Source: Owenia fusiformis (Eukaryota; Annelida; Polychaeta; Sabellida; Oweniidae). Taken from it: a stretch of 64,000 nucleotides of DNA. Shown piece after piece: positions 1 through 49,201 of this stretch (positions are counted from its first letter, which is position 1; every line of letters starts with the position of its first letter). The stretch is from positions 21,836,184 to 21,900,183 of the forward strand of contig CAIIXF020000012.1 in assembly GCA_903813345.2 (NCBI GenBank). The letters are read 5' to 3'. A program made the translations under genes and the position numbers. The notes beneath the pieces were generated by a model, which ran no database searches, had not been told where the DNA came from, and saw only the letters and a program-made list of their open reading frames with translations.

Positions 1-1235
1 CAAACCCAGTTATCGATTGAGCAAGAATTGTTAGGGACACAACATGGATTGTAGATGTGTCGGTGAAGAGCTAAACACTGAAGAAATACCATATTAACTA
101 TAAAAAGCGCACATCACCAAAATTTCAGGAGAATTAAAGATTGACTAACCAGCAAATTATGAGATCAACATTCTATGAGAAAACGAGCCAGATTCATTAA
201 TGTTTACCAAAATTAGACCACTTTTGATCTTACTTTATGATCACCCTGTACACCAAATTTTGCAGTATAATGCAAGAGGTCCTGAGTAATAAAATAATTG
301 AATAAGTCAATCAACTTTGATTGTATGTGATCTCAAAGAGGATTTTAATTGGTCCACCACCCTCTATGATGATAGCTTTTAGTCTTATTTACCATTCTGA
401 TATAGCAGTATCAGTGAAATGTTGGCTGGGTTTCTTTCAACTTATTTTAATAACCAGCCTTAGTTGGGCCATATTTCAAGATTGGGTGCCTATACACCAT
501 CTCCTATGCCCTACAATCACTGGAGTATTGCATTAGGACTATTAGATGAGTGGTTATCAGGAGGTATCAGTTCAGGTACAAATGTACAATATGCAAATTA
601 TATTTTTGCAACTTCAAGTTTCATTTGGTATATAAATTATGATTTTGGATAACAGAATTCTTAAAAAAGTGGCGTTTTTTACATTATTATTTTTGCATTA
701 TTTCACAGATGATTGACAGATTTATCATGCAATAGCATTTCAGATAACAGATAGCAATACTGAATTTTGATTGATATTGAACTGATATTGCATGCCTTAT
801 CTTACTATGTGTGAAATATATTTATATTGAATAGTGCATGAAGACTGTGAAATCTGCAATGGATAGTGCTGATGTACTGGAAATTCCCAATGCACAATTT
901 GAAGGTATATATGAAGCAAAGTGCAAGGAATATCAGGATACATACACAGTGCATAATTGTCTGTAAGAAAAATTTACAATAGAATACACAGTGCAAAATT
1001 CATAGGAAACACAAAATACAATATATAAGGAATATAAAATACTTAAAGTTCACATTGCAAAATTTGCAATAATGATACCCCCATTAATGTGAGGGTGAGG
1101 GTGATTTGAAATCAACCCCACATCTATGGGGGTACAATGAATCATGCCAAATGCTCAATATGCAATGAAACCACCACACAAGCGACTGGGGTGGGAAATG
1201 CATAATTGATTTACCAATCAACCAATGAGCATTAG
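1..1235. other. 3' flank of the cysteine-rich gene, no feature recognised
   Basis: AT-rich DNA downstream of the minus-strand stop codon. Only short chance reading frames are present on either strand, and I see no clear polyadenylation signal, RNA gene or repeat structure. Confidence 0.4.
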
Positions 1236-1349
1236 TCAGTATCTCTCCTCTGCTCCCATTGGTTGCTTCATGTTGATCTCACAACAACAGCAGTTGATAG
1301 TTTCACATGCTGGAGGCTGACACGCACATTTACAATCACAATTGCCGCA
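1236..1349 (-). CDS. Cysteine-rich gene, terminal coding exon
   Basis: The acceptor is TTTGTTTAG just above 1349. The exon reads 37 codons and a TGA at 1238-1236. It encodes ten cysteines in the first 23 residues (motifs CDCKCAC, QPPAC, CCCC), then a polar tail ending in ERY. The frame matches the preceding exon (phase 0). Confidence 0.75.
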   Translation of the reverse strand, partial: CGNCDCKCACQPPACETINCCCCEINMKQPMGAEERY

Positions 1350-4300
1350 CTAAACAAACAAATTCACAATTAATGATGGAAATATCATTGCAGTGCTCTT
1401 CCAAGCATTGAAGAATTGCTCTCAGCATCAATTTGAGATTCTCAAACTAACTTGCATCTACCTGAAAACCTATTTAGAAAACCTTGTTTTTTAGTGCAAT
1501 TGTTTTTGCTCCTTTCTACCAATTCTTGAGAATGAAATAAAATGCCTTTCCGAACCTTGTTGGAACAAAATAGCATGTACAACATGCTCAATAGAGAGAT
1601 TTCGCACATACGTAAAATACAACTTATAACGTATACTTATACTTATAAGAAGACATACAAGGTGTTTCATAATGTGGGTATTTCGTCAGGAAAGATCTTC
1701 TCGGACTGTAATAAATAAAGGTCAAAGGGATGCCTTTTGTACTTTCTTGAATTGTAGCATGTTTAGTTGATCCAAATGTGTTTGTCTAGAATAAAATAGG
1801 CTCATATATAGTATATACATATAGACCCATCTCTTCTCAAATTGACTTTTTGGAGATGCTCGTTATGAAACACCCTGTATGTCATTTGTTGAGCTACTGA
1901 ATGGGTCGTTTCCAGGAATTGCTAGAACCTACTGGTTTGATTGGTGTTTCAAATTGATGGTTAAAGTATTTGATTGGATACTGTTCCTACTCAGCCGATT
2001 AATTTAGAAAATTCTTGCGGTCAATTGTTCCACACACATGTAGGTGAAGCTTTATACGTAGATCCAACTGTATACGTTTATCATCTACGTGTACATGTAT
2101 ATACAATTTTGTAAGTTCATTGAACTTATACTGATCATGAAAACTTTGAAATAATCAACTTGTTTATGTTATGACTCACTTGAAAGGATCATGACTCACT
2201 TTAAAGGATCGTGTTTAGAATACACTACAACTACTAGGACACGGAAGCAAGCATTTAATTATAATGTGCATAATCTACACGTGCAGATGACAGTGCATTC
2301 ACAGTCTCTGGTTGGTGGAGCTTTTCTGTATCGGGAATAGTTATGTTCCATTAAGTACAATTTAAAATTGATTTTAGTAAATATAATAGTTCGACATGAC
2401 CCTTTAAACTATACGTATACGTATAAGTTGTACTTTCACTTATGTGCGAAATCTCTCTATTATTATAGTTATACAAAGGAATTTTTGGTTGATTTCAAAA
2501 AAGTATTCAAAAAATCCTCCCAAAATAGATAAAAATCAAGATAAACCTTTTATTTCATTAACAAGATACTTTCTTGAAATCAACCAAAAATTCCTTTGTA
2601 CAATTACAATATTGAGAGACCTTAACATGTTGTGTTTATGTCGTTTTGTTCCAATGAGGTTCAGAAAGATGTTTCATTTCACTCTGGAAACATGATACCA
2701 AGAACAAAACAAGTGTTTGATGTGTTTTCTAAAACAATATAGATGAAAGTATATATAAATATATTTTTCAAATTATATTGTTACCATTCAAAAGATGACC
2801 ATTAAATTGACGATGTGTTAAATTTTTAGATTTTTTTTATGACTAGTTCAAAACGTGTGTTCAAAAAGTTCTCCATATCGATACCATTCCTTTCAAAGAA
2901 TTTTTAAAAGTTTGTGATTTTATTTTATTTTTTTATTTTCTTATTTTATTTATTTATTTATTTCATATAATACATACAATAGTTAACAATGAAGTGGGTG
3001 ACACAAAATTTGTGTATATTCCCACAGATGGAGTGAGTAAAATACAAGTATGTTACTATGCAGTTTGGGGATCTGCCGTGGCATGCCCTCGACAAAAGAT
3101 ATAATATGTGCCATCAAATTGCCCAAGGAAGGAATTAAAGTTGCAATAAATATTTCTTGGTTTGTTTTTTCATGAAAATGGTACTTTTGATGGATTGAAT
3201 GTGCGGGGGTAGTTGGTTCCAAATATCAGGTATAGAATACGCTAACATTGATTTTCCATAGTTAGTGCGGGTTTTTGGCTTGTCATAAGATTTCTTATTT
3301 CTTGTGTTGTAATTGTGTCTATTCTCAACTGTTTTGAAAAAAGATGGGAATATTTGTTTGTAATTATCCTTGTCGTTGATCCATTTAAACATAAAAATAT
3401 ATCTCTGCTGCTTATTTATTTCAAATATGTTCAATATTTTTAAGTCATGAAAAAGAGGTAGGGAGTGAGCTCTAAAATCACTATTTGTTGCAATTCTTAC
3501 AAATTTTTTCTGTGAGAGATGAAGGGTATTTAGTAATGTACAGCCTGCTTCACCCCATACTATATTTCCATAGATAAGGTATGAATAAATCAAAGAATAA
3601 TATATACTAAGTAGGCTTTTGACATTTAATAAATGCTTCACTTTGTATAATATACCAATGGTTCTTGATATTTTCATGTTTACGGATGTTATGTGATTTT
3701 TCCAGGTTAAATTTTGATCAATTATGATTCCTAAAAAGTTTATATGTGACACCTGTTCAAGTACTTTGTCATTCATAGTGACATTTATTTCATTTTTATT
3801 ATAATGCTTTTGTCTTGAAGAAAATATAATATATTTAGTTTTCTTAGCATTTAATGAAAGTTTATTTGTGGCTATCCATTCCTCGATTAGTTTCAGTTCA
3901 GCATTCAAAGCATTTGTGATTTCATTAAGATTTTTTCCTTGTATTAACAGATTAGTATCATCTGCAAATAGCACAAAAAATAATCGTGGAGAGGATAAGT
4001 AAATGTCATTGATATATATGATAAAAAACAAGGGACCTAGTACAGAGCCTTGTGGAACTCCACATGTAATTATCTCAGAATCTGAAATAGTGTCTTTGTA
4101 ACAGGTTTTTTGGATTCTATTAGAAAAGTAACTTTTGACCCATTCCAGTGCAACACCACGTATCCCATAAAACTCAAGCTTTTGAAAGAGAATATTGTGG
4201 TCTATAGTATCGAATGCTTTGGAGAAGTCAAGAAATAACCCTATAGAGAATTCACCTTTATCTATAGAATGTCTAATTTTTTCAACAAATGTGAGTACAG

Positions 4301-7300
4301 CCATGAATGTTGACTTTTTTTCTCGAAAACCAAATTGATAAAGATACAAAATTTCTATTTTGTCGAGAAAGGAAGTCAGGCGATGATGCATTAGTTTTTC
4401 AAGTAATTTGGAGAAGACTGGTAAAATCGAAATAGGTCGATAATTTGTAAAAAGTTGACTGTCCTCCTTTTTATGAATTGGAATTATTTTTGCAATTTTT
4501 AATTTGTCAGGAAAATTACCATTTGTTAGAGATAAATTGAAAATGTGTAATAATGGTAATTGGAATGCCTTACCACAATGCTTAATTATGGAAGGTTTGA
4601 AATCATCAAAACCGGCCGCAGAGTTTTTTAATTTAGATATTTCCATGTCTAACTCATTAGAGTCAATTGGATTCAAAAATAAAGTTGTAGCTTGTCTGCC
4701 AAGATTTTTCATGTAGTCTGAAGGACTTTTATTTGTAGAAGGAATTTGAGCTGCTAGGGTTTCACCTACCCTTGAAAAGAAGGAGTTAAATTGGTTAGCA
4801 ATGTCAAGTTTATTACTTATTTCAGAATTGTTATGGAAAAAAGAGTCTGGGATATTGTGGTTTTTATTTTTTCTTTGGAGAATTTCATTAATAATTTCCC
4901 AATTAGCCTTAATGTTTCCTTGATTTTCCTCAAATTTTCTACTAAAATAACGTTTATGTGCTGATCTTATGATTGTTTTTAGCATTTTTGAGTAGACTTT
5001 ATAATTTGCCTTATTTTGATTTGTCGGTAAACGAAGATATTTCTTATATAATTTGCTTTTTTGTCTTACAGATACAAGTATAGCTGTTGTAATCCAAGGT
5101 TTTTCATTATTATTATATAATTTAACAGATATTGTTTTTATTGGGAAACTTTCATCATAAATTTCTTTAAGGCGGTTTTCAAATAAATTGTAAGAAGTAT
5201 TTGCGTTGTCACTATTCAAAATATCTGCCCATGATTCTTTTGCTAATTTTTCTTGGAAAGTAGTGAGATTATTGTCAGAGTATTTTCTAATTGATTTGTT
5301 AATTACTTTTATCTGATGAATCGGTTTATTAAAAGTAGCAAATATAGGGAAGTGATCTGAAATGTCATTAAAAATTATTCCACATAATCCATTTTTGATA
5401 TCATTTGTAAAAATGTTGTCAATTAATGTTGCTGTACTTGAAGTCACCCTGGTTGCTTTGTAAATAAGTGGTATTAAATTATAAGATGTCATGATGTTGT
5501 AGAAATTTTCAGTTGGCTCATGCTGATTGGTCTTAAATAAATCAATATTAAAATCACCCATTACATAGTTTGTTTTGTTTTCTCTGGATAAATTATTAAA
5601 ATAGACTTCTAGACTATTATTAAATTCTTCGATATCTACATTAGGAGGCTTATATATACAGGTTAAGAGTATGTTTTTGCCATTGCTTACAATAACCTCA
5701 ATTGTCAAAACATCGCATCCTAAATGATTAAATTGAAGATCTGGTCTTTCTTTAACGTTAATAGTATCCTTGATATAGAAACCAACACCACCCCCTCTAG
5801 TTGATCGAGATTTAAAATAACCTTTGAAATTCATTAGTTTTGAATATTGTGATTCTTGATCCTCATAAAGCCATGTTTCAGAAAGGCCAACAATCGATGC
5901 TCCCTTATCAAGTGATGACAAAAGACTAATTGACTAATTTCCAATGATTTGACGGCATACTTCGAATATTACAATGGACTATAGCCATATCAACATTGTT
6001 GTTAGCATTCAAATTATTGTTCAGTTCAGTTAAGGTTACATATTCGCTCTTTGCCATAATTTCATTGGTAGTCACATCGAATCCAGGAGCATCAATCATT
6101 GATATCACCAGGTCATGGTGAATAGTGTTCAAAATTTTTTTTTTGTCTTATACATCTTCCAAATATGCTTAACTATCAATATGCATTAATAAGTTCCCAA
6201 TTTTAGAACAAACATCCCTTCAAAAATGACATTTTGAAATTGAAAAATCAATTTAAATGGTCCCAAAACCTTCAAGGCTACATATAAATACCATATGAAA
6301 AATGAAAATCCTGAAATGTATTGCTAACTGTGGAAATCATCGAGTCGTAGCAACAGAATATATGACATTAAGGAAATGCAGAGTTCACAAATTGTTTGAA
6401 GGAAAATATATAGAGTTCAGAATGTACAATGTTCAATATTATAATATTAAATATACGTATGAAGTATAATTTAATATAAATATATTTGAATTATTTTTTA
6501 TTATTATATAAGAGGGAGACAATTAAATATATATACTTAAATCACAGTATCAGAAGCAACAATCCTGGAAGAGGTTTATTCAATAAAAGTTATAGTTTGA
6601 ATAAGATGATGAAAACACATAGTGTGAATCAGCACATGATGTGCATTATCAGTACATCATGTGCATAATAAGCTCACTGTGTGCATTAACAGTGATTTGT
6701 GCGAAACAGAACAGAATGAAGTCAATATACTTACATCACACAGAGGTTCATTGCCTTGGCAACAAGGATTGTCCGCACTTTGACAACATTGGCACATTAT
6801 TATGTCAGCACATTCCAGGTGCTGGAATTGGAAAATACCATTATTACAACATTATCATTAAGACATAATACTATTCTTCTTGAAACTGATGTAACTGTAA
6901 ACGACACGTAATAGGCATTACATGGAATTAAATTATCAGAGCAAAAATGATTATAAAATTCTTGCAATCTTTTGAGACTTTCTCTCAACTTGTCTCCATG
7001 TAATGTCTGTTTTCTTTATTTTCGGATAATCTTATGATTTTTAAGGTTATCTTCAAAAAATGAGATATCCCCTTAATTTTAGTTCTAATGAATTAAGACA
7101 TTAATTAAGACATAATTTCCATATAATCAGATGTCTCGATTTAAAAATAAATAAAATAAGGATTGTATAAGGGATAAATTGGCATGATTCCTTCTCTCTA
7201 ATCCCTTCTTATTCCTTTGAAAGTCCTGCAAACATTAGTCTCAGTTATGAGTTAAGTTTTAAACAGCTCAGTTACAAGTTTGACAAAATACTATTGGTAT

Positions 7301-10300
7301 TTTGGCTTGTACTGTAAGACTGAAGCTAATGAAAATGTTACAAATGATTGGGTCAGAGTCTTAAAATATAACAAAAACAAATAACTTAATAAAAACTTAT
7401 AAGTTGTTTGTTATATAAACTTATAAGCAACCTGCATGTATTGCAGACTTGCATGTTAAATGTCCTGATATACAAAAGTCACTCCGGCAACTAGGCCCAC
7501 CTATTGTATTAACTAGATGATGTATACATACCCGACATATATTCTGTGAGGCATTAATAAAAAAAAATATAGATATTGCTGATCAGGTATAAAAATCATT
7601 TAATTATTTGACACACATGTACACCATTTAATTTCATACTGGACTACCTTATTTCATGGACATCGGACTGATAGTCTCAATATTACAGCACTTAAAACAA
7701 CATTCACCAGTTGGCCAATATCGTGCTGTTGGCAAACATGCACACATTTTCCAAAGTTGTCAAAGATCTAACTGCATTCTTCATGGAGTATGGTCTGAAT
7801 GACACATGTGATCTCACTTTTGAGGTCTAATGTTGTTCTGCTGTTATTCTCCTATACTCTTTATTTGGGGTATCCCCACTTGTAAAAGTTAAATGGGGCT
7901 ATATCTGGGCTATGTGGCGCCTATTCATTGCCTGTTGTACTGCTGATAATGTGGTCTTTGGAGTGGTCCCAAAGCCATTCTAGTGCATCATAGGCTGTAT
8001 GGGGCATGGTTCTGTTGTGTTAGAAAAACTATTGCTACTTATCAATCTCCTTGAGTTGACCTAAAGCTCCCCCTCCCTCCCAAAACTTCCTGAGAATCAC
8101 AATATAGCGTTCCGTGTTGTCAGTTATTGCATTTTGCTGACATCTTCAAAAGTAAAGAACTCTATCCCCATGTGCCGAGTATACACTAATCTGGGCATCT
8201 GTCTGAGTGTGTGAAGTTGCCTCTGCACTACTTCATCAAGTGATTGGCTCCCAAAGAAAATATAACTGTCAGAGTTTACCAGATTATCAAGTTGGAAATA
8301 GAGTTCATCGGAATACCAGACCACAGGGTTCGCACACCTTTTTCAAAATGAAACTCCCTGACATTTCCAGGCAAAAAAGGAAATTTCCAGACCTAGTTTT
8401 GCTTGCAAGGGCCTCCCTAAAAAGTCTCAAACAACTGTATCGTTTAAAAGACGAGACTTATTATGAAACATTTTGGGAATCTCCTTTAATACCATTTCTC
8501 ATGACTTAACTTTACTTCTACAGGTCGTCTTATTCACCAATAGCCACTTCACCAGAGCCACTCCTGATATATTATATTCTCAATTTTACATATTTACATT
8601 GCATAAGGCCAAAGGTAAACATACATGTACAGGGGCATAGCCAACAAGTGTCAAGGGGTGCATCTTTTGGGGTTTGCATCACTGCGAGCGTAGGAAAACC
8701 AAAAGGGGGGGTACAGGGGTTAATCCCCGGAAATTTTTAAAAATTGACATTTGTATATGGTGCATTCTAAGCATTTCAAACTATAATTTGTTAATATTTT
8801 GTAATGAATCCAAATGACAACTGAAACTTCAAAATTTTGATCTAAATCTAGAACAAGCCACAGGGTGAACAGAATGGCACCCTTGAACAGAATACACTTT
8901 TCCTGATGGAAAATTCAGAATGGCCACCTTAACATTTACCCAGACTGCCTAAAAACTAATCAAACTTGTAGACTAACCTTGACAGACAAGATTTTAGGAC
9001 AGAAAATTCAAAATGGCTGCCTTAACATTTACCCAGAATGCTGAAAAAACTAATCAGTTCTAAACTTTCATAGGTAGAAACATCCCTGAAAATATCAAAT
9101 GCATGCGTCAAATGGTTTGGCTAGAAACCTGTAGACAAGCCTTGACAGACAAGATTTTAGGACGGAAAACCCAAAATGTTCTAAACTTTCATAGGTAGAA
9201 ACATCCCTGAGAATTTTAAATGAATCCCTCAAACGGTTTGGCTGGAAACCTGTAGACAAGATTATTCACATTGTATATGGTGCATTCTAAGCATTTCAAA
9301 CTATAATTGTTTTGTCAATGAATACAAATGACAACTGAAACTTCAAAATTTTGAGCAACTCCCTTGAGGGGCAAGTCCCACCTGATGAAACATATTTTAT
9401 TGAAAACTGATCATTATGAACATTATATGATAGCAATAACCTGGCATACCTATTGTCTTCTCACCTTTGAGAAAATCTACACAAAAACATGATACCATAT
9501 TAGAAATTCCTTCTCAAGTAGCGTCACAATAAGGCACAGGCCTATGATACCAAATCAAATAATTGGTATTTGTGTTATCAGGAATCATATTTCAAAAAGT
9601 TTAATAATAAAAAATAGAGGCATTTTGAATTCAGAGACCATCTTGAATATTTCTTCTTGAGCAGATGTCATTTATCCCTAAGGCATCGCCATATAATGTT
9701 TGAGATAAAGTAAGTTCTCTAAGTTCATCTTTACATGAAGAAAGGTTCTTCTTTTGATTCTTGGTTATTTCCTCCTCTTCCTGTGAAATTTGGACCAATT
9801 CCAAAAACTGTCAATAAGGTTTTCAAAATTAATTGTTTTCATGAAAAATGGGGAAAACGCAGAGGCCCTAAAAAACCAAAGTATAACCTTTGAACCAAAT
9901 CTGTCAACTGATATTTGAGTTATCGCCCTGACAGATGAATAGACTTACGTATGATCGGACTGTCGGACAGCTTCTCAATATACAGTTTTATACTTTAAAG
10001 AGTTCCCAGAATTATTTTTGTTTTTCACCTCCCACCATCCTCAGATTAACCCCTCAATAAAAGGTAACCCAATAAAACATGCATGAAACATATACTGGTA
10101 ATTTTTATTTCTTAAGACTAACTTTCAAGCATAATGTATTGAACCATCATATATGTTATATTCTTTATTGTTTGGTTTCAGTATAATGTTCATACTGTTC
10201 TTAAAAATATACAATACCAGATAGAATGTCATTCAATCAATTCTAATGAAAAGATTTCTAATTTGTGGAAACAATTAAATGTCAAGGTACAGCTGGAAAG

Positions 10301-13300
10301 TAACATTTTGGTAAAAAATTGCTATACCTGCACATGTTATTTTCTGGTACAAAATTAAGTATGAAGTCATGTGTCAATTTCCTTGCTTTTTTCAGGAAAG
10401 TATCATTACATTGTCTTTTTTTAGAATATCTCATTCTGGTAGGAGTTCAATGGGAACTCCAGGAAATTCCGATATTTCACACTTTCTATTTTTCCAAATT
10501 TTCTTTCAAAGTTTTCAGACAACACAGGAACTACCATTGACCTGTTTCCAGGTTTACTAAAAATAGATAGTGTAATGATCCTTTCCTGAAAAAAGCAAGG
10601 AAATACACACATGACTTCATACTTAATTTTGTACCAGAAAATAACATGTGCAGGTATAGCAATTTTTACCAAAATGTTACTTTCCAGCTGAACCTTAAGT
10701 TAGATTTTGGACTTTATTGATATCCTGTCATAGTCCTGAAATGTATTTTACTGAAACATTATTTTTCAACACTGATACAAAATTCCCTGACATTTCCCTG
10801 ACACATCTACTGTTTCAAAATTCCCTGACATTTTTGGCCCTTTTTGACCCAATTTCAAAATTCCCTGACATTTCCAGCACCTGGAAAAATAAATCAATTT
10901 CCCTGACATTTCCAGGTGTGTACGAACCCTGGACCAGTTCAGACAGCCCGAAAGTGGCCATCTGGGGTATGTTGTTTAAAATGCTGTGATATTGTGACTA
11001 TTAGTCCAATGGTCATGAAATATGGTAGGCTGGTAGGAAATTGAATGATGTACAAATATGATGCCAAATATCAGGGAGTAATAACCTAGATGCGAGTAGA
11101 AATAATCTTGATTTACTTCATTAAAAATTCAAAATTCAGTCAAAGTAATATCATATTTGAAATCTACATGTAAAATTACATCTAGTAATGTGGTTTTAAA
11201 AAGTGTTTATCAACTTTGAAAAATTAATTTTCTTTGAAAATGTGACTTCTAGCTCGGGGAGATTCCCCGACCCCATGCTATAAAATCACAAAAAATGAAA
11301 TATCTTTTCTTTTAGTGGACAGATAATATTTTTCTTTACTGGACATATTTTCATTAGTATAAGTATCAGACACATAAGGGTTATATTAAAATTGAGCCAC
11401 TTAAATTTATAATATTCAAGTTTAAGGGAACTTTCTTATATACCTGCCATGTTAATTGACCCGAATCAGACACCTGGCGGTGAAACTGGTAACTTCCTAC
11501 TCGCATTTGGGTAATTTGCTCAAACACCAAAGATATGAGGAAAAATTAGGGTTGCCGTTTTTTACCACCCTGTAGTAGAGGTAAAATATTTATTAAAGAT
11601 TGGAAAAGCTTAGAAAAAGGCTAAATAGCCATTTTTATTTAACTAGTGTAGGCAAGATCGTTTTTAATGATGTAAAGTTTTGTGACCCATTAACAGTGTT
11701 AATTAGTAATGTTACCATGAACTATTAACCCTACAAATGGGTGATTTCTAATTATTAATAAGTATAGATGACTCACCCTCCTAGCTGGGCAACATGAGTC
11801 AAGACAAGATTCAAAATTTGGATGTTTGCAGCAGTTGAAGAATTCTGCCATAGCTATCCAACAGTCACAACATTGAGATTCCCCTTCTTTGCCGCAACAA
11901 CCAAGGTCTTTACAAAATCCTCGAGACTTAAACAAAGACGGGTATATTCGTCACAGCATGTTGGTTCATTTATTAATACAAATCTCCTTCAGTTCTTGTG
12001 CTAACATATTTTTGATTTGATTCTTGTATTCACAATTTTATGAAGTACCCCACACAAGTTTTTGATAGGAACTTAATTGACCCATGATTAAATTACTAAT
12101 TTTAAATCAATTTCTTCATGTTTAACTTACCAGGAGTACTTGGCGAATGATGAGTACTATGACAATAACAACCAAATATGCACCAATAGAGATACAGATA
12201 ATGGCTGGAGTGGGTAATAATTGAGAATACTGCACTTGGTTCTCTGACGGCTAAAACAAAGCAAAAGAAATATGCGTGCAAGTAGTAACAGTAAGGTTTA
12301 AAGATTCAATTACAAATATCTAAACAAGAAACAGGGTGAACAGAATCGCACCCTTGAACAGAATACACTTTTCGGGATGGAAAATTCAAAATGGCCTCCT
12401 TAACATTTACCCAGACTGCCTAAAAACTAATCAGTTCTAAACTTTCCATCTGAAACATCTCTAAAATTTTAGGATGAATCCATGAAACCTGTAAACAACC
12501 CTCAAGAGACACGTTTTAAGGTATTACTTCACAGTGTATCAGCTTTTTTTTCTATACAATTCAGATTTTCCTGAAAAAATCCTGGTAAAAGATAAACTGA
12601 TATATTACAAAATATGTGAAAATTGGAAAGATTGGCCGTTTAGTTAAAAAAAAAATGTTTTAATTTAACATTGCTCTCAATGGGAAATTATTATTTTATT
12701 TTTTAAACAAGCCTTCACAGACATGATTTTAGGATGAAAAATCCAAAATGGCCACCTTAACATTTACCAAGAATGCCGAAAAACTAATCAGTTCTAAACT
12801 TTTATAGGTAGAAACATCCCTGAGAATTTCAAATGAATCCCTCAAACGGTTTGGCTGGAAACCTGTAGACAAGCCTTGACAGACAAGATTTCAGGATGGA
12901 AAATCCAAAATGGCCGTCTTAACATTTATCCAGAATGTCGAAAAACTAATCAGTTCTAAACTTTCATAGGTAGAAACATCCCTGAGAATTTCAAATGAAT
13001 CCCTCAAATGGTTTGGCTGGAAACCTGTAGACAATTAAACCTTGACAGAAAAGATTTTAGGATGGAAAATCCAAAATGGCCACCTTAACATTTACCCAGA
13101 ATGCCGAAAAACTAATCAGTTCTAAACTTTCATAGGTAGAAACATCTCTGAGAATTTCAAATGAATCCCTCAAACGGTTTGGCTGGATACCTGTAGACAA
13201 GCCTTGACAGACAAGATTTTAGGACGGAAAATTCAAAATGGCCGCCTTAACATTTACCCAGAATGCCGAAAAAATAATCAGTTCTAAACTTTCATAGGTA

Positions 13301-15841
13301 AAAACATCCCTGAGAATTTCAAATGAATCCCTCAAACGGTTTGGCTGGAATCCTGTAGACAAGCCTTGACAGACAAGATTTTAGGACGGAAAATCCAAAA
13401 TGGCCACTTTAACATTTACCCAGAATGCCGAAAAACTAATCAGTTCTAAACTTTCATTGGTAGAAACATCCCTGAGAATTTCAAATGAATCCCTTAAATA
13501 GTTTGGCTGGAAACCTGTAGACACCCAACCGCCTGGCAAACTGATTACAATATACCACCTTAGGGTGATCCATATCTTTATTTTCAAAAAATTGTGATTG
13601 ACATTAAAATTATCAAATTATTTGGTAACCTTACATTCTACAACAGAATCTGAGTATTTGAATACTTTCTAGCAATTTATACAAACATCATTTAAACACC
13701 AAAACAGTAATTTTGAGAGATTTGAAATTTTCTGTGGACCTATATGTCACAACTATAGCAAGCCATCAACTTTATTTGATCAAAATTACTGATTCTCTTA
13801 AACCAAGAGGACTTACTACGGTGATGCAGTCGAAATAGATACTTCGTGGGTAGACATAAAATGAATGTTAATACCACTTGTATGAGTGGCAGTTTTAATG
13901 TGACCACCAAAGAATAAATGTACCCATGGAATGGACAAATGGATGGATGGATGAATGGGTGTGTGACTGTGTAGGTTTGTGGATCGATGGATGGATTATA
14001 AGTAAATTGAAGCGGGAATAATAAAAAGACATACCTGGTCCATGTCAACTTTTCTTAGACTTGAAATAACACCAAGTTGTAAGGTGGAATCATCATATTT
14101 TCTCCCCTGTCTTGTCAGAGTCCCAACTGTTAACAATTTTTATCAGTTGCTTAATCAGCTGACATAATCATCTGTAACAGAATACAACATGTAATATAAG
14201 AGAATGAACATCATAATGTTACAAAATACCACAGAATAAAACAAATAATGAAACAAAATACAACATAAATATGAAGATAATAGAAATGACATACATGTAA
14301 TGTGGTGACAGAATTGTTCCAAAATGCAACAGGTTAGGGATGGGTTGGTTCATTATTACACTGATAAATAGCATTTCCATAGAAAATCATTCAAAAAACC
14401 AGGATGGTAATTTTGCTTGTATTTTGACATTTTGTTTTGTCCTATTCAACACCACATTTACAGGAAATGACTACAATGCCTTTATCATTGCAATAAACAT
14501 ATTACTGATTCTATTAGGATGCTGTCCATTATCAGCCTTTGTTATATTCATACTAGTGAGGAGAAGAAGGTTGAAAAAAGTTCTCAAATTGATAAAAGAC
14601 ATTTCCTTGAGGACTTTAACTGAGCACAAAATGTACATCTGGTTTGCAGAGACTCAGGTCAGTATTTGCATATTGTAAAATATGACATGAACCCATGTTT
14701 GCAGTACATAATCCAACAAATGAATCCAAATGTTGTGTTGTTAGATGTTAATGCTTGGAACCAGAAGATCACAAGACTAGCGTTTCCAATATATGTGGAG
14801 CAACTTATCGTTCGGTTTCGGAACAAGAACATTTTACCCTTTCACAACTTCTGGCCTTAAATCTCCACAAAACAGCATTTTTCTTGCAATATTTTGCATC
14901 AAAAGAGGTTCATTCTTTTTACTCCTTCTCTTTGAAGAGTTTTGAAGAGCTTTTCGCTACCAAATAGACCTAGATGATCAGATTATTTTAATCGAATACA
15001 CGCAGTCACTCTGTTCCGAACCGTTCCGAAATTGTTCCGCTTTGAAGCAAAATGTTCCGAACCGAACCGTTCCGATTTTTTTTGTTCCGTGACATCTCTA
15101 CAAGCTATCAACATTACATAGTACTACATCTTTTGTTTATGATATGAAATGCATAGTTTGCATAAATACATAATGCATAATTATTTGTATATTGTATTCT
15201 TAAATCTATTTGATCCAAACTAAACTTAAAGAATAAATAAGTGACATATTTTTGCAGACTAACTTGTACATGAAGGTTTGACTTGGGCTGTAATTTTAGG
15301 GACGTGTTTGCAGTTTTGAGTTTCCCTTCCATACTAGATTAGTGTTCTGTTGCTTTTTATTGCCTGGTCTTCCTGATTAAATGTGAATGATTTTCAATAT
15401 ACTTATCATACTCTTCTACTCTTATCATACATCTTCCATTCTTACATCACAAAATCATGGTGCCGACTGTCGGTATACGCAATGGTTTTCAGTACAACGC
15501 GTGTCGGAATATTGGTTCTCAGTACAATGAGGTGATCCTAGTCTATATCCAATGATTGAATTTCCGGAGAATTCAGTCTGAATATTTTCATTCCAAATTT
15601 CAAAACATTTCAGACTAGAGGATATAGTCTAGAGGTGATCCCAACAAATCAACAATTACCATCCATTAACAATTAACATGAACTAAGAGGCTGAGACTGG
15701 CCTGCCTTATCAGTTTGTTATGCCACAGCCTTGAGCCTACACTCAATTTTTTTATTCTGTGAACCAGTTCATATGGTTAAAATAACGAAAGAATGTGATG
15801 TAACCACGTATCTACTTACCAGTTTGTTCTAGGTCATCCGT
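1236..15841 (-). CDS. Single-pass membrane protein with a cysteine-rich tail (spliced, six-exon model)
   Basis: I assembled this from splice signals; I do not recognise the family. The exons, 5' to 3' on the minus strand, are 15841-15820 (uncertain), 14126-14035, 12250-12131, 11926-11777, 6821-6735 and 1349-1236. They join in one open frame of 195 codons including the stop. Residues 1-50 or so are polar. A hydrophobic helix with a following Ile-Ile-Arg (about residues 53-75) looks like a transmembrane anchor. The last 116 residues hold 28 cysteines, many as CC or CxC pairs, ending in a CCCC cluster and a short polar tail. There is no signal peptide, so the tail is probably cytosolic. The tail superficially resembles the cysteine-rich I-mfa (MDFI/MDFIC) type, but I cannot show homology. 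The exon phases agree at all five junctions, which strongly supports a real gene. The start codon is unresolved: the first-exon copy on this strand has ACG where its inverted copy has ATG. Confidence 0.72.
1656..1879. mobile_element. MITE with mariner-like ends
   Basis: It begins TACAAGGTGTTTCATAA and ends with the near reverse complement TTATGAAACACCCTGTA. A TA at each edge is consistent with Tc1/mariner target choice. It is 224 bp, has no reading frame, and is nested inside the 1.5-2.7 kb inverted-repeat element. Confidence 0.6.
2466..2608. mobile_element. Small hairpin MITE inserted in an inverted-repeat arm
   Basis: About 30-bp terminal inverted repeats (core ACAAAGGAATTTTTGGTTGA) flank roughly 75 bp of AT-rich DNA. 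The matching arm at 1530-1650 lacks this segment, which marks it as an insertion. Confidence 0.6.
2920..6140 (-). mobile_element. Non-LTR retrotransposon (LINE), nearly full-length second ORF
   Basis: A minus-strand element in an intron of the cysteine-rich gene, in the same orientation as that gene. It has an endonuclease plus reverse-transcriptase ORF and a short 3' UTR that ends near 2920-2965 in an (AAATA)n-like simple tail, typical of several CR1/Jockey-type LINEs. The 5' end is near 6140. I see no ORF1 and no clear target-site duplication, so it is probably 5'-truncated. A relative lies at 39.5-41.3 kb. Confidence 0.85.
3135..6132 (-). pseudogene. LINE endonuclease-reverse transcriptase, broken near the N-terminus
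   Basis: The main open stretch (5921-3135) has about 928 codons. It shows an APE-type endonuclease with LSETWL (residues 13-18), GDFNID (122-127) and SDHFP (188-192). The reverse transcriptase follows, with NYRPISIL (493-500), LDFSKAFD (564-571), GVPQGSVLGP (621-630) and the catalytic FADD (652-655), then a C-terminal domain. The start of the endonuclease (6132-5926, with HCNIRS) is in another frame. A TAG and a one-base shift near 5922-5935 separate the two parts, as comparison with the copy at 41.0 kb shows. The reverse transcriptase keeps its catalytic residues, but the full protein cannot be made without recoding. Its clade is CR1/Jockey-like by motif order; I cannot fix it further. Confidence 0.85.
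6735..6821 (-). CDS. Cysteine-rich gene, penultimate exon
   Basis: A 29-codon phase-0 exon between acceptor CCAATTCCAG and donor GTAAGTAT. It encodes seven cysteines (MCQCC, PCCQ, LCD motifs). The other two frames are closed by stops, so the open, cysteine-rich frame is not an accident of composition. Confidence 0.75.
6822..7649. other. Intron sequence, nothing recognised
   Basis: Part of the intron between the 11926-11777 and 6821-6735 exons of the minus-strand gene. It is AT-rich, and I see no gene, RNA or clear repeat in it. Confidence 0.4.
7650..8323 (-). pseudogene. Mariner-type (DDE) transposase remnant, main part
   Basis: Reading the minus strand from 8323 downward gives transposase landmarks in order. 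They are WYSDE followed by FQLDNLVN (first catalytic Asp region), FFGSQ, GIEFFTFED, then PHTAYDALEWL, APHSPDIAPFNFYKWGYPK (second catalytic region) and a C-terminal LKSEI. Several in-frame stops and frame changes interrupt it, so it is dead. The upstream continuation lies beyond a 2.6-kb insertion, at 10932-10985. Family placement (mariner/IS630-like) rests on motif recognition only. Confidence 0.7.
8324..10931. mobile_element. 2.6-kb non-autonomous transposon inserted in the transposase remnant
   Basis: The left end is CAGGGTTCGCACACC and the right end GGTGTGTACGAACCCTG, which are near inverted repeats. GACCA flanks both sides as a 5-bp target-site duplication. Subterminal copies of CCCTGACATTTCC occur at both ends (8350-8372, 10785-10915). 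There is no transposase ORF. A foldback (10285-10695) and diverged copies of the 162-bp repeat (8860-9270) lie inside. Family is unassigned; the CAGGG ends are hAT-like, but a 5-bp duplication is not. Confidence 0.6.
10285..10695. repeat. Long inverted repeat (hairpin)
   Basis: About 10285-10430 is a nearly perfect reverse complement of about 10550-10695, including ACCAGAAAATAACATGTGCA and the CAGGAAAGTATCATTAC / GTAATGATCCTTTCCTG pair. The loop is about 120 bp. The short reading frames here mirror each other and are not genes. Confidence 0.75.
10932..10985 (-). pseudogene. Mariner-type transposase remnant, upstream piece
   Basis: After the right-hand GACCA, the minus strand stays open toward the transposase frame and ends LSELVW, which continues in frame as YSDE at 8316 once the insertion and one GACCA are removed. 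This supports the two pieces having been contiguous. Confidence 0.5.
10986..11776. other. Intron sequence, nothing recognised
   Basis: AT-rich intronic DNA of the minus-strand gene, with no supported coding, RNA or repeat feature. Confidence 0.4.
11777..11926 (-). CDS. Cysteine-rich gene, exon following the membrane anchor
   Basis: A 50-codon phase-0 exon with a pyrimidine-rich acceptor (CCCGTCTTTGTTTAAG) and donor GTGAGT. It encodes eleven cysteines, including LGCCG, CCDC, NCC and SCC. An alternative upstream frame also contains CCDE before the exon, but it would need a 1-nt shift; the acceptor at 11926 removes that need. Confidence 0.75.
12131..12250 (-). CDS. Cysteine-rich gene, transmembrane exon
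   Basis: A 40-codon phase-0 exon with acceptor GTTTTAG and donor GTAAGT. It starts with a polar stretch (PSENQ) and then encodes about 23 consecutive hydrophobic residues rich in Ile and Val, ended by an Arg. This is a typical single transmembrane segment. Confidence 0.75.
12330..13525. repeat. Tandem array of a ~162-bp repeat
   Basis: Landmarks such as CAGTTCTAAACTTTCATAGG recur near 12789, 12951, 13117, 13279 and 13441, spacings of 162-166 bp. Each unit also carries CTTGACAGACAAGATTTTAG and GGTTTGGCTGGAAACCTGTA. A diverged unit with an insertion starts near 12330, and related partial units lie at 8860-9270. The array sits in an intron of the minus-strand gene. Confidence 0.85.
14035..14126 (-). 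CDS. Cysteine-rich gene, N-terminal exon
   Basis: 92 nt, acceptor TTAACAG, donor GTATGT. One frame is open; it starts with two bases completing a split codon and ends in phase 0 at the transmembrane exon. It encodes a polar, Arg/Lys/Asp-rich stretch with no hydrophobic segment. An in-frame Met (VDMDQ) near its end could be an alternative start. Confidence 0.6.
14464..14657 (+). CDS. Possible exon of an unknown membrane protein on the opposite strand
   Basis: An open segment from acceptor CATTTACAG (to 14463) to donor GTCAGT (14658). It encodes about 25 hydrophobic residues, a basic stop-transfer run (RRRRLKK) and an amphipathic stretch. This is the layout of a transmembrane segment followed by a cytosolic region. 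No neighbouring exons in phase are evident, and it lies within an intron of the minus-strand gene. It could be a captured fragment of a transposon or a decayed gene. Confidence 0.25.
14658..15732. other. Intron sequence with a GTTCCGAACC-rich patch
   Basis: No gene is supported. At 15010-15090 short GTTCCG/AACCG motifs recur, which looks like degenerate simple repeat. Confidence 0.35.
15820..15841 (-). CDS. Possible first coding exon of the cysteine-rich gene (ACG in place of ATG)
   Basis: The strong donor GTAAGTAG below 15820 ends a segment whose phase fits the 14126-14035 exon and gives TDDLEQT. The frame is closed upstream by a TAA, and the first usable codon is ACG at 15841-15839. The inverted copy at 16470-16491 has ATG at the same place. 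Either a non-AUG start is used, this copy is decayed, or the true first exon lies elsewhere. Confidence 0.35.
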
Positions 15842-15951
15842 CGGACTAGGTTACATTGTGGAACGCAGCCAAACAAGACACTGAAGGCAACAGCATATCG
15901 ATCTTGATCTTAGCAGAATTTTTGGAAATTTAGATCGTCCATTTTGCAAGC

Positions 15952-15990
15952 TCACGTGACTGATCATGTGTCAGGTGTCTGATCACGTGA
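15952..15990. promoter_or_regulatory. Pair of TCACGTGA E-boxes
   Basis: Perfect TCACGTGA palindromes occur at 15952-15959 and 15983-15990, 31 bp apart, within a short GTGTCTGATCA repeat. This octamer is the known target of USF/TFE-type bHLH-zip factors. The position upstream of the divergent first exons suggests a promoter element; this is inference. Confidence 0.4.
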
Positions 15991-16469
15991 CATGTGTCTG
16001 ATCACATGATTAGTTACTGTATCGATCATGTAACTGAATGACGTATCGCCCAACCATGTCTTCAAGGAAAACGGTAGTAAATATTTTTGAAAATAGTTCG
16101 CGAGCATTTGCTACTGATTATAGAAGGCCCAATTACGCAATGAACGAAACTGCTAAATTGTTTTTCGTGCCTAACAGGCCTGGACACAAACGAAACTGCT
16201 AAATTTGAATTTTTAGTCTGCTTATTGATCTATTGATTCATAAAGACATGAAATGATGCATTCAAATAAGACCACCTCCTAAATGAAAACACTACACATA
16301 AAGTGGTGAAAAACAACGAACTAAAGTTGAAAGATCGCAACGTTCGCTACTTTGTTCACTTCCAGAAATCTCCAAGGGGCTACAAATGGGAAATTATTTA
16401 GATTTTATAACTTCAGAATACTGCCATCAATGTTGTGTTTGTCTGAGTTCCACAATGTAACCTAGTCCG

Positions 16470-16491
16470 ATGGATGACATAGAACAAACTG
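16470..16491 (+). other. First-exon-like copy with ATG, pointing away from the cysteine-rich gene
   Basis: ATG at 16470 opens MDDIEQT plus one base and is followed by the donor GTAAGTAG. This is the inverted duplicate of 15841-15820. No plus-strand exon in matching phase is evident downstream, so it may be a non-functional copy or the start of an unrecognised plus-strand transcript. Confidence 0.35.
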
Positions 16492-16584
16492 GTAAGTAGA
16501 CACATGGTTACATCACATTCTTTCGTTATTTTAACCATATGAACTGGTTCACAGAATAAAAAATTTGAGTGTAAGCCACATGCT

Positions 16585-21100: not shown

Positions 21101-24100
21101 CTGTTTTTTGTGGCGTCGGTTGGTGGTTGGCAATCAGCAGGTGGCGGTTGGCATCTGTAACAAATTCTTACAACTTCCAATAACTTAACAAATACTGTTT
21201 AGACTGACTTCAATTTTTTCCAAATCATCTACAAGTTTTCAGAAGTTCAGATCTTACTGTACATTTAAGATTTGGCCTTCAATGACCTTTTCAAGGTCAA
21301 AAAAGGTTAAAAAGGGTCGAAAAGGTCTTTTTTTCAACTTGCTTCAAATTAACCCAATTTTTCAAAATCATTTACAAGTTAACAGAAATTCAAATCTGAC
21401 TTTAGATTGAAGATTTGACCATCAATGACCTTCTCAAGGTCAGTGAAAGGTCAAAAAGGTGTTTTTGCAACTTGCATCAAATTGTCTAATTTTTTTTTTA
21501 AATCAGTTCTCAAAAGTTCAAATCTGACTATAGATTTGACCTTCAATTCCATTCTCAAGGTACATTCAGATGGCTGCCTAATGTGGGATTTCGCAATAAT
21601 TTTGTGACCTCTTCAAAGTATGGCTATATTATACTCAAATTGAAGGAATTTTAGAGTAGATCACAATTATGATATTGTTTTTCTGATTTGTGCCACAGAA
21701 AATTCAAAATGACTACCTAGAGCAGGAACTTGCTTTTACTTAGAGATCTCTTTATGGTTATATGATACTACAAATGATCTCAAATATTTAATCAAGGGAA
21801 GGATAGATGTAAGTAATTACATTGTGACATATACAGATTCATGAATATAATGTTTGGTGGGATTTGCTACTCCTTGGAGTTACCTATTTCTAGGCTATTA
21901 CTTGCTAATTGACATTGTGCTACCATTTAGATTCAACACCACTAACATTTGAGACACCAGACAGTCATTGTAAAGAGACTCCAAAGCCTGACAGTGAACA
22001 GACAGGGAATGTGGCAGAACCAGGATCTGCTCCCACATTAGGCCCAGCTCACAACCCGGAGAAAAAGAAAGGTAAGATTTTGCTGTCAATTTTAGTGTTG
22101 AAATAACTACGGTATTCTACCAAATTCATATTGATCAAGGGGAATACTGTGTAGCTTCACATGCATATCACAGGTTGTCATTGAACATTTTGTCTGGCAT
22201 GGGAGCATGCTATTTTTCATGAAAACACTATGAAAACTTATCACACAATATTATATGCACACATATTTCTAAACCCATATATTTTTCATTCCAAATTAAA
22301 TAGCCTACACCCTGCATGCAATGGCTTCAATTCATCATTTGTGGATAACCATCACTTCTGTTTGAAGTCCAATAATGCTAAGAGTATAGCTATTGAAAGC
22401 GGCGACACAGTATCATACTCTAAAATATACCATTTCATTTCTTTTTACGATATAGCGACTTGATAATACCCTGCATTTAGATGTTTTCATTATAACTCTG
22501 AAGGTGTTAATAAGAAGAGAGGATATACCAATATGGAAAGGGGGTTTGAATGAAATCATATAGTCATATTGGACAATGAAGGAATGTTTATAGTTAGATG
22601 AGTACTCTCGAATATATGAGTGTTCTGTGACCATTACAATTACAAATATACTAATGGGGGAATCAATATATGTTCTGAACCATAAATAACAATCAAATAC
22701 ATCAAACAATGAGAAATATATGGGAGTTCTGAACAATGAACAATTTGATAACTGCATAATTAGTTTCCACAAACACTATTGTTTCATTATTTTTCAGATA
22801 AAGCAGCATCAGATCTCAGCCTAGATAAATACATGAATAAGGTTACCAGCGAAGACAATGCATCTTTTGAAGAGATTTTGAAACTAAATGATGAGAAACA
22901 CAGAATAAAACATGCCTGGCTCTTCAAAGAGGAGGCTGAACGAAATGAAGTAAGTCTTTTACTGTATAGTTATGTGATGAGAATAAGCAAATCTTAATCT
23001 TATTTTCAGAAAAGCTTATTATGCTTTGAAGTGCCCTAACCCTGATTTATAAATTTTAGAAGTAACTGTACATGTACATGTACATCACTGTACATTAAGC
23101 AACATTATTATCCCACCGAACAAAGTTCGAGGGGGATATAGAAAAGCCATCCGTCCATTCATTTGTGTGTCCGGGCAATAACTCAAACACTGGTTGATGG
23201 ATTTCATTCAAATTTTATAGGCTTATGCCTTATGCCTCTGCTCGAGAAGAAATATACAATATGGCCACTCAATTCAAAATTGCCACCAATATTTTCTAAA
23301 AAATGCAATCTTTGATAACTCAAATACTAGCGCACAGATTTGGTTCAAATTGTTTATGATTGTTCCTAGGGGCAAAGGAGTTTTGCTCATGAAGGGATTT
23401 TAAAGATGGCCGCTGTATTGAAAATGGTGGCTATTTTTCCTAAAATATGCCATCTTTGATATGATAGCTCAAATACCAGTGAACAAATTCTGTTTAAATT
23501 TTATATGCGAATGCCTAGGCAAAAAGCAGCATTGCTCAAGAAGAGATTTTCAAGATGGCTGTTGAATTTCAAAATGGTCTCATGAATTTCAAAATGGCGG
23601 CCATTTTGAGTAAAAAATGTAATCTTTCATAACTCAAATGCTAATTGACGGATATGGTTTACATTTTATATGTTGATGCCTAGTGACAAACAAGCTCTGC
23701 TCAAGAAGGAATTTTCAAGATGGCCAATAATAATCAATTACATGTATACACTAATATATGTTTTGTTCGATGGGATTTACTACTCTGTGAAGTTACTGTT
23801 TTTCTAGTTGTAACAGATACAGCTTCAATAAATTTTGATGTAATTGTACAGGAGATGGCAGCCAGGTTAGCGCTACCAAGCATTGAGGAGCAGGCAGCTA
23901 TAGAAGGCAGGCCAGTAGGCAAGGAGGTTGAATCTTGGGGCTATAAAAATATGAATTCCATTATGTATATACCAGATGGTAAGTTCTTCAGCTCATTCAA
24001 TACTTCAAAATTTATGGTTGCTATGGTAACTCATGTTTTTTAGCACTTAAATAAAAATTAGAAATATATTTTATTCACTTTGTGAACGATTCAGCAAACA

Positions 24101-26035
24101 TAAATATGAGTTTTTTTTTGTTAATGTAGGTGTGTCTGAAAGTGCCAAAGAAAAAATTGAAAGACAGAAAAAGAAGCCCAGAGAAATCATTAAATCTAAC
24201 ACAAGGTTTGAAAAAAAACCTTTTAACACAGCCCAAAGTGCAGAAGTGATTACCCAGGCTGCCTCGGAGCGTGCTTCTGCCCTCCAGGGAAAAATAGGGG
24301 TTGATGGGAAGGAAATCTTGCCTCAACAATCCCCAAGGGTAAATGGATATGGATTTGTAGGGACACCATCTCCTGCTCCTGGTGAGTAAATAGACAACCC
24401 ATAGTCACATTACATCCATATTACATCTTATATCCTAGTGGATGGATAGATAGCTCACATGACATGCATATTCCTGGCTCCAGAAATTCCCCATGTAAAA
24501 TCATGCAGGTTTCAAAGGTGCATATTAAATGGTATATCTGGAGAAAATTTGGAAAATAAAGCGAAAAGTCTCTCATCACTTTGTAATGCAATATGTGAGT
24601 AAATGTCATTCTAAGTTTCAATGAGAAGTCCAATTATTATTGACAATGAATTTTGCTTGTAGGTGTGGATGCTTCACCATTTATGACATGGGGCGAGATA
24701 GAGGGATCTCCTTTCCGATTGGATGCATCAGACACACCCATTAACCTAACCCCAGGTCCAGTATTTAAGGTACTAAGCAGTTACTGCACAGTTAGATATT
24801 TCATAGTGTATGTCCAGTACCAGTACATTTAAAGTAGTACAGTTACAGTACACTGAGAATTACAGTACATGTATTTATGTACTGTACAAACTTTGTATTC
24901 ATTTGTGATTGTCCACCCTTGTGTTGCAATGTTTGGCTACATATGTTTAACCTTACTGATTCATGATGCTAATTATTTGATGACAGGTTCAAATGAAATG
25001 CGTTGTTTATCATTTTGTACAAACTAGAGAAAAATAAAAACCAAGTGCGTGTACAAATAGTCCTCAATCAGATTACTACATGTATATTCTTTCATTTCAA
25101 AATTATGAAATAAGTAAGTCGTATTTGAATATTTTCATATGTTTTAAGATTCCTAATATACCCAAGAGAGACCAAATAGCTCTGGATCTTGCAGAGAAGG
25201 CCAGCAAAGCACATAGAGCTAAGAAACAGGCTGCCATTAAGGAAGTCAAATCTCACTTATCAAGGTATGGCAATATTTAGAGTATAAGTTACAGAAAAAG
25301 TAGTTTAATTATGTATTCCACTTTGAAAAAGTGCTACATACTCTTGTCGTCTTTTGCAGATAGGTGGGTGGACAGACGCAACATAAATTATGTCATCAAT
25401 ATTCCAGGAAAACCATTGATTCCTCCAAAATGAAATTACACATTGAATTTATCAATGCATTTTTCTTGAACAAAAGCCATTTAGGGGTTAAAATGATAAT
25501 AATTTCGTGGGTTGTACTGAAAACCTTTGCTCCATGTAATTGATTTTTTGTATATGAGAATTTATGAGTGGGTTGTTTAATAGAAAAAATTTAATTTTAT
25601 TGTAATTAGTTCTTGAAATGTAAAATGCAAATCATTCATAGAAATAAGATGTTAGATATTTATATTAGCCTTTATGAAACCTTTTTGCGTTGCAGTCCTA
25701 GCCCAAAGTTCAGCTCAGCCCACTCTACAGACCGACTCAAGGGAATGTCACCTGCTGCCCAGAGATTAGCCACAAGTAGACTAGGAGTCAGAATGAACAC
25801 TGATAAATCACTGCGTGCAAGCTACACACCATCCCCCAATAGACTCACACCTTCAAGGGAAAAAACGCCCAGGGGTACCCCATCATTAACCCCCACTAGA
25901 AGCCCCAGTTCTAAGGCATCTCCTCGGACAAAGGCCCCAATAAAACGAACAGTGACACCTATCACAGGATCAGTGACTGATAACTTACTACAGCTACCCA
26001 AGACTAAAAGAATTAAAGCTTCAGATTTTTTCTAG
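18000..26035 (+). CDS. ESS2: ESS2 splicing-associated nuclear protein (DGCR14/Es2), complete nine-exon gene
   Basis: Exons 18000-18113, 20246-20408, 21931-22071, 22798-22949, 23852-23978, 24130-24381, 24663-24769, 25149-25264 and 25696-26035 all have GT-AG borders and join in phase to 503 codons plus TAG. Vertebrate ESS2 is about 476 residues. The family is nuclear and associates with the spliceosomal C complex, where it influences splice-site use. Landmarks in order are VLDEEAYSEGIEKIIKRDFFPD (split by exon 1/2), TSEDNASFEE (exon 4), NTRF and QSPRVNGYGFVGTPSPAPG (exon 6), MTWGEIEGSP (exon 7), RAKKQAA (exon 8), RASYTPSP, and TDNLLQLP plus the terminal KASDFF (exon 9). All are conserved family signatures and there is no stop or frameshift. 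Introns carry repeats, including a strong hairpin in intron 1. The ATG at 18000 is the only in-frame start in exon 1. Confidence 0.95.
18337..18802. repeat. Long inverted repeat in ESS2 intron 1
   Basis: Left arm about 18337-18528 and right arm about 18610-18802 are nearly perfect inverted copies. They share GATCCGCGGCTTACTTTTGG, CAGTATCATCAATCCGTG and GGAGCGCTGGAGTACTTC. The spacer is about 80 bp. It is likely a MITE or foldback insertion and would form a stable hairpin in the ESS2 pre-mRNA. Confidence 0.85.
20246..20408 (+). CDS. ESS2: ESS2 exon 2
   Basis: Acceptor GATTTCAG, donor GTAAGT. Encodes the conserved GIEKIIKRDFFPD region and a charged helix (EYLEALEKND), residues 39-92. Confidence 0.93.
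21045..21575. repeat. Dispersed repeat in ESS2 intron 2
   Basis: Contains an imperfect palindrome (TCACCACCAAGAAGTGGTGA) and then two to three diverged copies of a ~150-bp unit with AAATCTGAC, AATGACCTTCTCAAGGTC and AAAAGGTC motifs. There is no coding capacity. Confidence 0.5.
21931..22071 (+). CDS. ESS2: ESS2 exon 3
   Basis: Acceptor CCATTTAG, donor GTAAGA. Encodes TPLTFETPD and a poorly conserved Pro/Glu-rich linker, residues 93-139. Confidence 0.9.
22798..22949 (+). CDS. ESS2: ESS2 exon 4
   Basis: Acceptor TTTTTCAG, donor GTAAGT. Encodes SLDKYMNKVTSEDNASFEE and KHAWLF, a hallmark block, residues 140-190. Confidence 0.93.
23115..23725. repeat. Diverged tandem repeat in ESS2 intron 4
   Basis: Opens with the imperfect inverted stretch CCGAACAAAGTTCGAGGGGG. 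Units of about 130-180 bp follow, sharing ATCTTTGATAACTCAAATACTAG, AAGAAG..ATTTTCAAGATGGC and AAAATGGC motifs. Probably an old dispersed element. Confidence 0.5.
23852..23978 (+). CDS. ESS2: ESS2 exon 5
   Basis: Acceptor TTGTACAG, donor GTAAGT. Encodes ALPSIEEQAAIEGRP and SWGYKNMNSIMYIPDG, residues 191-232. Confidence 0.92.
24130..24381 (+). CDS. ESS2: ESS2 exon 6
   Basis: Acceptor TTAATGTAG, donor GTGAGT. Encodes KSNTRF, GVDGKEILPQQSPRV and the start of the GTPSPAPG motif, residues 233-316. Confidence 0.93.
24663..24769 (+). CDS. ESS2: ESS2 exon 7
   Basis: Acceptor GCTTGTAG, donor GTACTA. Encodes MTWGEIEGSPFRLD and LTPGPVFK, residues 317-352. Confidence 0.92.
25149..25264 (+). CDS. ESS2: ESS2 exon 8
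   Basis: Acceptor GTTTTAAG, donor GTATGG. Encodes a basic helical region (RDQIALDLAEKA, RAKKQAAIKEV), residues 353-390. Confidence 0.9.
25696..26035 (+). CDS. ESS2: ESS2 exon 9 (terminal)
   Basis: Acceptor GCGTTGCAG. Encodes the Ser/Pro/Thr-rich C-terminus with repeated TP and SP pairs (possible proline-directed phosphorylation sites), LRASYTPSP, TDNLLQLP and the terminal KASDFF before TAG. Confidence 0.93.
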
Positions 26036-31426: not shown

Positions 31427-31993
31427 GTCTACCCCCCGAGCGCTACTCCATATGGGAGGCGTACCCATACGTATTCGGAGAACCCTTCTGCATCTTTAAG
31501 ACATTCGTGAGCGAGACAACATCTTATGCATCAATATTGACTATTACAGCATTTACCATAGAAAGATACATCGCCATATGCCACCCAATTCGCTCACATA
31601 CGATGTCTAATCTCCCACAGGTGGTGCGGATCATCGTCATACTATGGGGCATCGCGTGCGTATTCGCGCTCCCCTATGCGATACATACCAGGACGTTCTA
31701 TTTTCTTGCGATACCCGGGACGGCGACCGATACTTATTTCGGGGTTCCCATTCAGAGTTCACTGCAGTGCAATATTCTACCCGTTTGGATCTCTAGAATA
31801 AAATACATGTTTCAAATAACAACATTTTTATTCTTCTTTGCTCCAATGACTCTGATTTCTATCTTGTACATACTAATTGGGATTCAATTGAGAAAATCTG
31901 GAAAACGTCTAGGGCAGCGAAAAAACGAATCGTTCAATTCAAATTGCGGAAAGGCACAGAAGCAATCAAGGAGAACCGTTTTGAAAATGTTGG
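31427..31993 (+). CDS. Neuropeptide GPCR exon (neuromedin U / pyrokinin / CAPA receptor type)
   Basis: A 567-nt exon between acceptor GTGTTTCAG and donor GTAAGT, 189 codons, phase 1 at both ends, no stop. It starts in the first extracellular loop with GLPPERYSIWEAYP and FGEPFC. TM3 follows with ERY (residues 46-48, the DRY-equivalent), ICHP, then TM4 with the conserved Trp (74) and Pro. A second loop contains LQCN, whose Cys115 would pair with Cys22; TM5 and a basic third loop complete it. This pattern is characteristic of PRXamide receptors, which couple to G proteins at the plasma membrane. TM1-2 and TM6-7 are absent from the window, so the gene is partial here: either very long introns, or an isolated duplicate. 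As coding sequence it is intact. Confidence 0.88.
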
Positions 31994-48354: not shown

Positions 48355-49201
48355 AGATAGTATAAATTATAGATGCTGCAGACATGTAGCACAAATGTTC
48401 TCAAGTCCAAGGTAAGAGGAGTGAGCCTGAAAATAAAAAGGAAAACAATCAGGATTGATTAAAATTTTGAATGCTCCATCTATTATGAGTACCAATATCA
48501 ACACCTGTTTTTGATCTAATGAGATATTCATGTATATTCTTCAAGAATAAATTGAAATGTGGTGTTTCGTTTTTCAAAGCAGTTGCCATCTTGACTTTGC
48601 CCAATGTGAAGTAGGAATGGATCGGGCAACAGACCAAATGTGAAAATAATGAAACATGGCTTCATGGTACATTTGTACATTAAGTGAAATCAAGGCAGTC
48701 ATCATTTAGTGTATTTCATAGAAAAAATATTTGCGAAACATAAATGTGCCAGCAATGGGATTAGAATCCCAACAATAGAAAAATGTGTCGTTGTGGAATA
48801 ACCGTACTGAACCAGAGAGCAAAAGCATCAAATGATAGAACTGATTATGTGTTACAGTACCTTTAACAAGATGGTATGCAGATATAAATGCTGCAGATAG
48901 GTAGCACAAATTGTAGATTCTCTGTGGTTTTGCCTCTGTGGTTTTTTTTGTTCTCTCCAAGGCAAGAAGACTGCACCTGAAAGTACATTTAAGGAAAAGA
49001 TCAGCGATGGTTCAATTAAAAAGAAAGAAAACCCCGAAACTAAGCCCACAATTTTAACATGAAAACCCAAAAGGAAAAGACCCTCCAATCTACAACTGTA
49101 GCTAAAATGAACACAAAACTTCAGATCTTAAAAATTTAGATCTGGAGTAGTACTTGAAGTCAACTTTTAAATTGAATCATTACTGAGTAAGTATTGGTCA
49201 A

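Follow-up and report, generated by a model that had tools for sequence, protein, structure and literature searches.

What kind of protein, if any, is encoded by the cysteine-rich exons on the minus strand of this window (the whole stretch of Owenia fusiformis DNA that was analyzed, 64,000 nucleotides in length)? An earlier note on the same DNA had proposed a five-exon gene at 1236-15841 for an unrecognized membrane protein with a cysteine-dense tail. Reading of the minus strand at every claimed exon yielded the following features, listed in the direction of transcription.

15735-15889, minus strand: candidate untranslated exon at the 5' end; a strong donor is present at 15820/15819, but the stretch sits in an inverted-repeat arm and is a doubtful part of the gene.
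14035-14171, minus strand: start-codon exon with 5' untranslated region; ATG at 14043, coding for MDQ only; acceptor in the top 3.9% of AG sites, donor in the top 0.4% of GT sites.
12131-12250, minus strand: coding exon 2, phase 0, 40 residues with the transmembrane helix; donor in the top 0.1%, acceptor in the top 5.4%.
11777-11926, minus strand: coding exon 3, 50 residues, 11 cysteines, LGCCG and CCDC blocks.
6735-6821, minus strand: coding exon 4, 29 residues, 7 cysteines.
1236-1349, minus strand: coding exon 5 with the stop codon, 37 residues, 10 cysteines, CKCACQPPAC and CCCC blocks; acceptor only in the top 33% of AG sites.

The five coding parts (14043-14035, 12250-12131, 11926-11777, 6821-6735 and 1349-1236) are joined across four introns, all of which are phase 0 and GT-AG, and the joined frame is open throughout from the ATG at 14043 to the TGA at 1236, giving 159 amino acids (480 bases including the stop codon). 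The consistent phases proposed previously thus stand, as do the good donors, which score among the best 0.1-1.7% of GT sites with general splice matrices. Acceptor quality is uneven: exons 3 and 5 have ordinary sites that rank in the top 23% and 33% of AG sites, and the remaining ones fall in the top ~4-5%. The start codon lies in the context GACATGG. In-frame stops upstream of MDQ in the same exon fix the N-terminus, provided that this exon is right; the exon also carries short upstream reading frames beginning at 14171 and 14096. Candidate poly(A) signals (AATAAA or ATTAAA) are found on the minus strand at 451 and 349. The GC content of the four longer coding exons is 0.41-0.46, versus 0.29-0.36 in the 2-kb blocks of 1-16000, and every exon is single-copy within the window. 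From this evidence in the DNA itself we regard the five-exon locus as a real gene.

The claimed 5' limit at 15841 falls inside a 155-bp inverted repeat (arms 15735-15889 and 16422-16576, 92% identical), which leaves the 5' edge of the gene doubtful. The stretch at 15735-15889 could represent an untranslated exon at the 5' end or mere repeat. An identical strong splice donor is carried by both arms, and an ATG-led frame (MDDIEQT) reaches it on the plus-strand arm, where the minus-strand arm has ACG. The two arms are possibly duplicated divergent first exons.

A 162-bp repeat in five copies is located at 12707-13523 in the first coding intron, and related sequence is found at 8846-9260 in the third. 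The last (fourth) coding intron contains a non-LTR retrotransposon whose open frame of 932 codons (3138-5933, minus strand) covers endonuclease and reverse transcriptase; a related broken copy, judged by eye, is located at 39751-41298 (minus strand). Large repeated units spaced ~3.1-3.3 kb apart fill 48709-64000, each with a repeated open frame and a 162-165-bp array of 7-8 copies; the arrays are at 52018-53321, 55279-56592, 58550-59691 and 61663-62967. On the plus strand, opposite to the cysteine-tail gene, 23687-26032 appears to hold exons of ESS2 (Es2, DGCR14): the segment 24051-24386 matches nuclear protein Es2 (PF09751, 1.2e-9) and a spliceosomal ESS-2 homologue (1.4e-21), and the flanking fragments 23687-24040 and 25610-26032 match Es2 below threshold only (E 0.11 and 0.15). 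A first ESS2 exon may lie at 18000, judging from the ESS2 N-terminus; Pfam and PDB searches of that stretch gave no match. A rhodopsin-type receptor fragment is found at 31357-32025, plus strand (Pfam 1.6e-23; closest in PDB, neuromedin-U receptor 2, 2e-32). Such neighboring genes indicate animal DNA.

The cysteine richness of the exons was compared with chance expectation in two ways. Among 28-residue windows in all six frames of the 64 kb, irrespective of splice sites, the richest belong to exon 5 (10 cysteines), exon 3 (8) and exon 4 (7), followed by five further windows with 6 cysteines each; in first-order simulations at least 7 cysteines were reached in 7 of 60 runs, 8 in a single run and 10 in none. 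The second test was limited to splice-bounded phase-0 internal exons, a class outside which the terminal exon 5 falls. Among the 18 candidates, the cysteine fraction is highest in exon 4 (0.241) and exon 3 (0.220); third place (0.167) goes to an extended version of exon 4, and the best candidate unrelated to these reaches 0.042. The best fraction obtained in 100 second-order simulations was 0.20, with a single candidate of at least 0.18 in six of them and two such candidates in none. A chance origin of the cysteine-rich exons is unlikely. Cysteine is encoded by a mixture of TGT and TGC codons, so that no simple repeat lies behind the cysteine runs. An additional cysteine-rich window at 7676-7759 (minus strand) was considered as an extra exon and excluded; a diverged copy of this stretch lies in inverted orientation at 10943-11054, so that it looks like repeat sequence.

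The encoded protein has a single strongly hydrophobic segment at about residues 19-38 (best 19-residue mean hydropathy 3.27, compared with at best 0.47 beyond residue 44), in agreement with the one transmembrane helix proposed earlier. The tail comprises the 116 residues from residue 44 on and contains 28 cysteines (24.1%), as had been claimed, in nine CC and six CxC steps; all four of the residue blocks singled out in the earlier note are present in the translation. Its residues 121-137 are CxC-rich with CDCGNCDCKCAC-type spacing. The charged residues flanking the span are D2 and E6 before it and R39, R45 and K49 after it. Exon 3, when folded alone and without relatives, gave a model of too low confidence to interpret (mean pLDDT 60, pTM 0.38).

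Searches of Pfam at E up to 10 returned no family for the whole protein, the tail or exon 3, consistent with the statement that no known family fits, with the limit that HMMER filters discard most weak matches. The same three queries were unmatched by the profiles for I-mfa (PF15316, the comparison that had been suggested), Sprouty (PF05210), PLAC8 (PF04749) and metallothionein (PF00131), each of which recognized its positive control: a human MDFIC fragment (3.1e-42; identical to a PDB chain), the SPRY2 tail (4.4e-40), a PLAC8 control (4.5e-13) and human metallothionein (5.6e-23). The PDB sequence search listed ferritin alone (E 1.2), and NCBIfam a single chance-level match across the span (E 0.19). 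A Pfam match of the span exon alone to DPM3 (E 0.084) was under the family cut-off and was rejected. A cysteine-dense C-terminal region is shared with Sprouty proteins, which are palmitoylated at membranes, and the PLAC8 family likewise comprises short cysteine-rich membrane-linked proteins, but alignment of the tail scored below the shuffle mean for SPRY2 (z -0.47) and at shuffle level for PLAC8 (z 0.03).

Pattern searches for relatives matched 7 stretches in viral contigs and 22 in prokaryotic genome contigs, none of them confirmed as a relative; tblastn against plasmids found none, and degenerate patterns of the CKCACQPP block had no match in either set of contigs. Since these collections hold prokaryotes, viruses, phages and plasmids, misses are expected and are uninformative for animals. 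Peptide strings of the tail had no match among the papers searched, and further literature searches listed no work that we recognized as dealing with this protein. "Unrecognized" here means only that there is no match in the libraries tested, which are Pfam, NCBIfam, the PDB and the prokaryotic, viral and plasmid collections just named.

The gene model, the hydrophobic span and the cysteine pattern are seen in the sequence, and from them we infer a topology, S-acylation and a partner. We tentatively propose a single-pass type III protein. Its cytosolic tail would carry S-acyl groups on cysteines and, anchored through these lipids, regulate another membrane protein, and the distal part of the tail possibly binds metal; this is a plausible reading, although we would not yet call it probable. 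The short acidic N-terminus would face outside and the 116-residue tail the cytosol, as predicted by the positive-inside rule from the flanking charges listed above. In the reducing cytosol the tail cysteines would stay reduced and open to S-acylation or metal binding. The membrane-near cysteines C48, C53 and C54, together with the doublets that follow, would be the candidate acylation sites, and the acylated tail would lie on the membrane and regulate its partner as a lipid anchor, while the CxC-rich end at residues 121-137 may additionally bind metal. MDFIC offers a known case in which a cysteine-rich, acylated C-terminus influences a channel, since its palmitoylated C-terminus is reported to modulate PIEZO1 (PMC12626003); because MDFIC has no detectable relatedness to the present protein, it serves as an analogy. 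Against acylation, 28 cysteines exceed what it needs, and the distal CxC pattern resembles a metal-thiolate site more.

A different reading of the whole tail is a membrane-tethered metal-thiolate domain for zinc or copper, which would buffer or carry metal on the cytosolic side of the membrane. Its 28 thiols in 116 residues and the spacing at residues 121-137 are consistent with such a domain, and the CxC-type spacing of the distal tail is a likeness to metallothioneins, from which the protein differs by its membrane span and longer tail. The metallothionein profile finds the human protein and not this one, and the alignment of the tail to MT2A lies below the shuffle mean (z -0.76); metallothioneins are diverse, however, hence the missing match argues only weakly against the domain. 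We consider this reading rather unlikely, though not negligible.

Still less probable is an extracellular, disulphide-rich tail carried on a signal anchor. The number of cysteines is even, and vicinal cysteines do occur among secreted disulphide-rich proteins, but the charges around the span favor a tail on the inside, and no secreted cysteine-rich family of Pfam was matched.

A further rival reading is a far-diverged member of the I-mfa (MDFI) group joined to a membrane span. With MDFI, MDFIC and MDFIC2 the protein has in common a C-terminal part very rich in cysteine, in which CC and CxC runs recur, and membrane association, which MDFIC achieves through palmitoylated cysteines (PMC12626003). 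The present protein differs by a transmembrane span ahead of its tail and by the lack of any profile signal or alignment signal beyond composition. Local alignment of the tail to MDFIC, MDFI and MDFIC2 gave z values of 0.85, 0.73 and 1.71 above shuffles, with the real score reached by 190, 236 and 57 of 1000 shuffles, respectively; with the cysteines fixed, the values were 1.30, 1.47 and 2.15, and 42 of 1000 shuffles reached the real score for MDFIC2. True paralogues align far better (MDFIC-MDFI 27.2, MDFIC-MDFIC2 15.4, MDFI-MDFIC2 11.2). The likeness is therefore superficial, as judged earlier, and no more than cysteine composition; MDFIC2 alone, in which CCPSRR is aligned with CCPARR, leaves a faint doubt, and we hold a diverged relative to be very improbable.

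Equally improbable is a wrong gene model or a decayed gene, with exons open by chance or joined otherwise: two ordinary acceptors, the tiny first coding exon and the doubtful 5' exon would fit it, but the 28-residue and splice-bounded simulations, the four phase-0 introns, the strong donors, the lack of a premature stop over 480 bases and the mixed cysteine codons without simple repeat all speak for an intact gene.

Profile searches, with scores that are corrected for composition, easily overlook cysteine-dense membrane tails, and those of the MDFI type have been tied to PIEZO channels only recently (PMC12626003). It is quite possible that the present protein is a member of an uncurated family of animal proteins with unnamed orthologues, and if that family is conserved, a Pfam entry would be the sole missing piece. 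A separate animal family, in which a cytosolic cysteine domain anchored to the membrane and without kinship to I-mfa, Sprouty or PLAC8 would have arrived independently at a lipid- or metal-loaded tail regulating a membrane partner, is possible but on the unlikely side. Such a distinct family would provide an independent test of how cysteine-dense membrane tails work.
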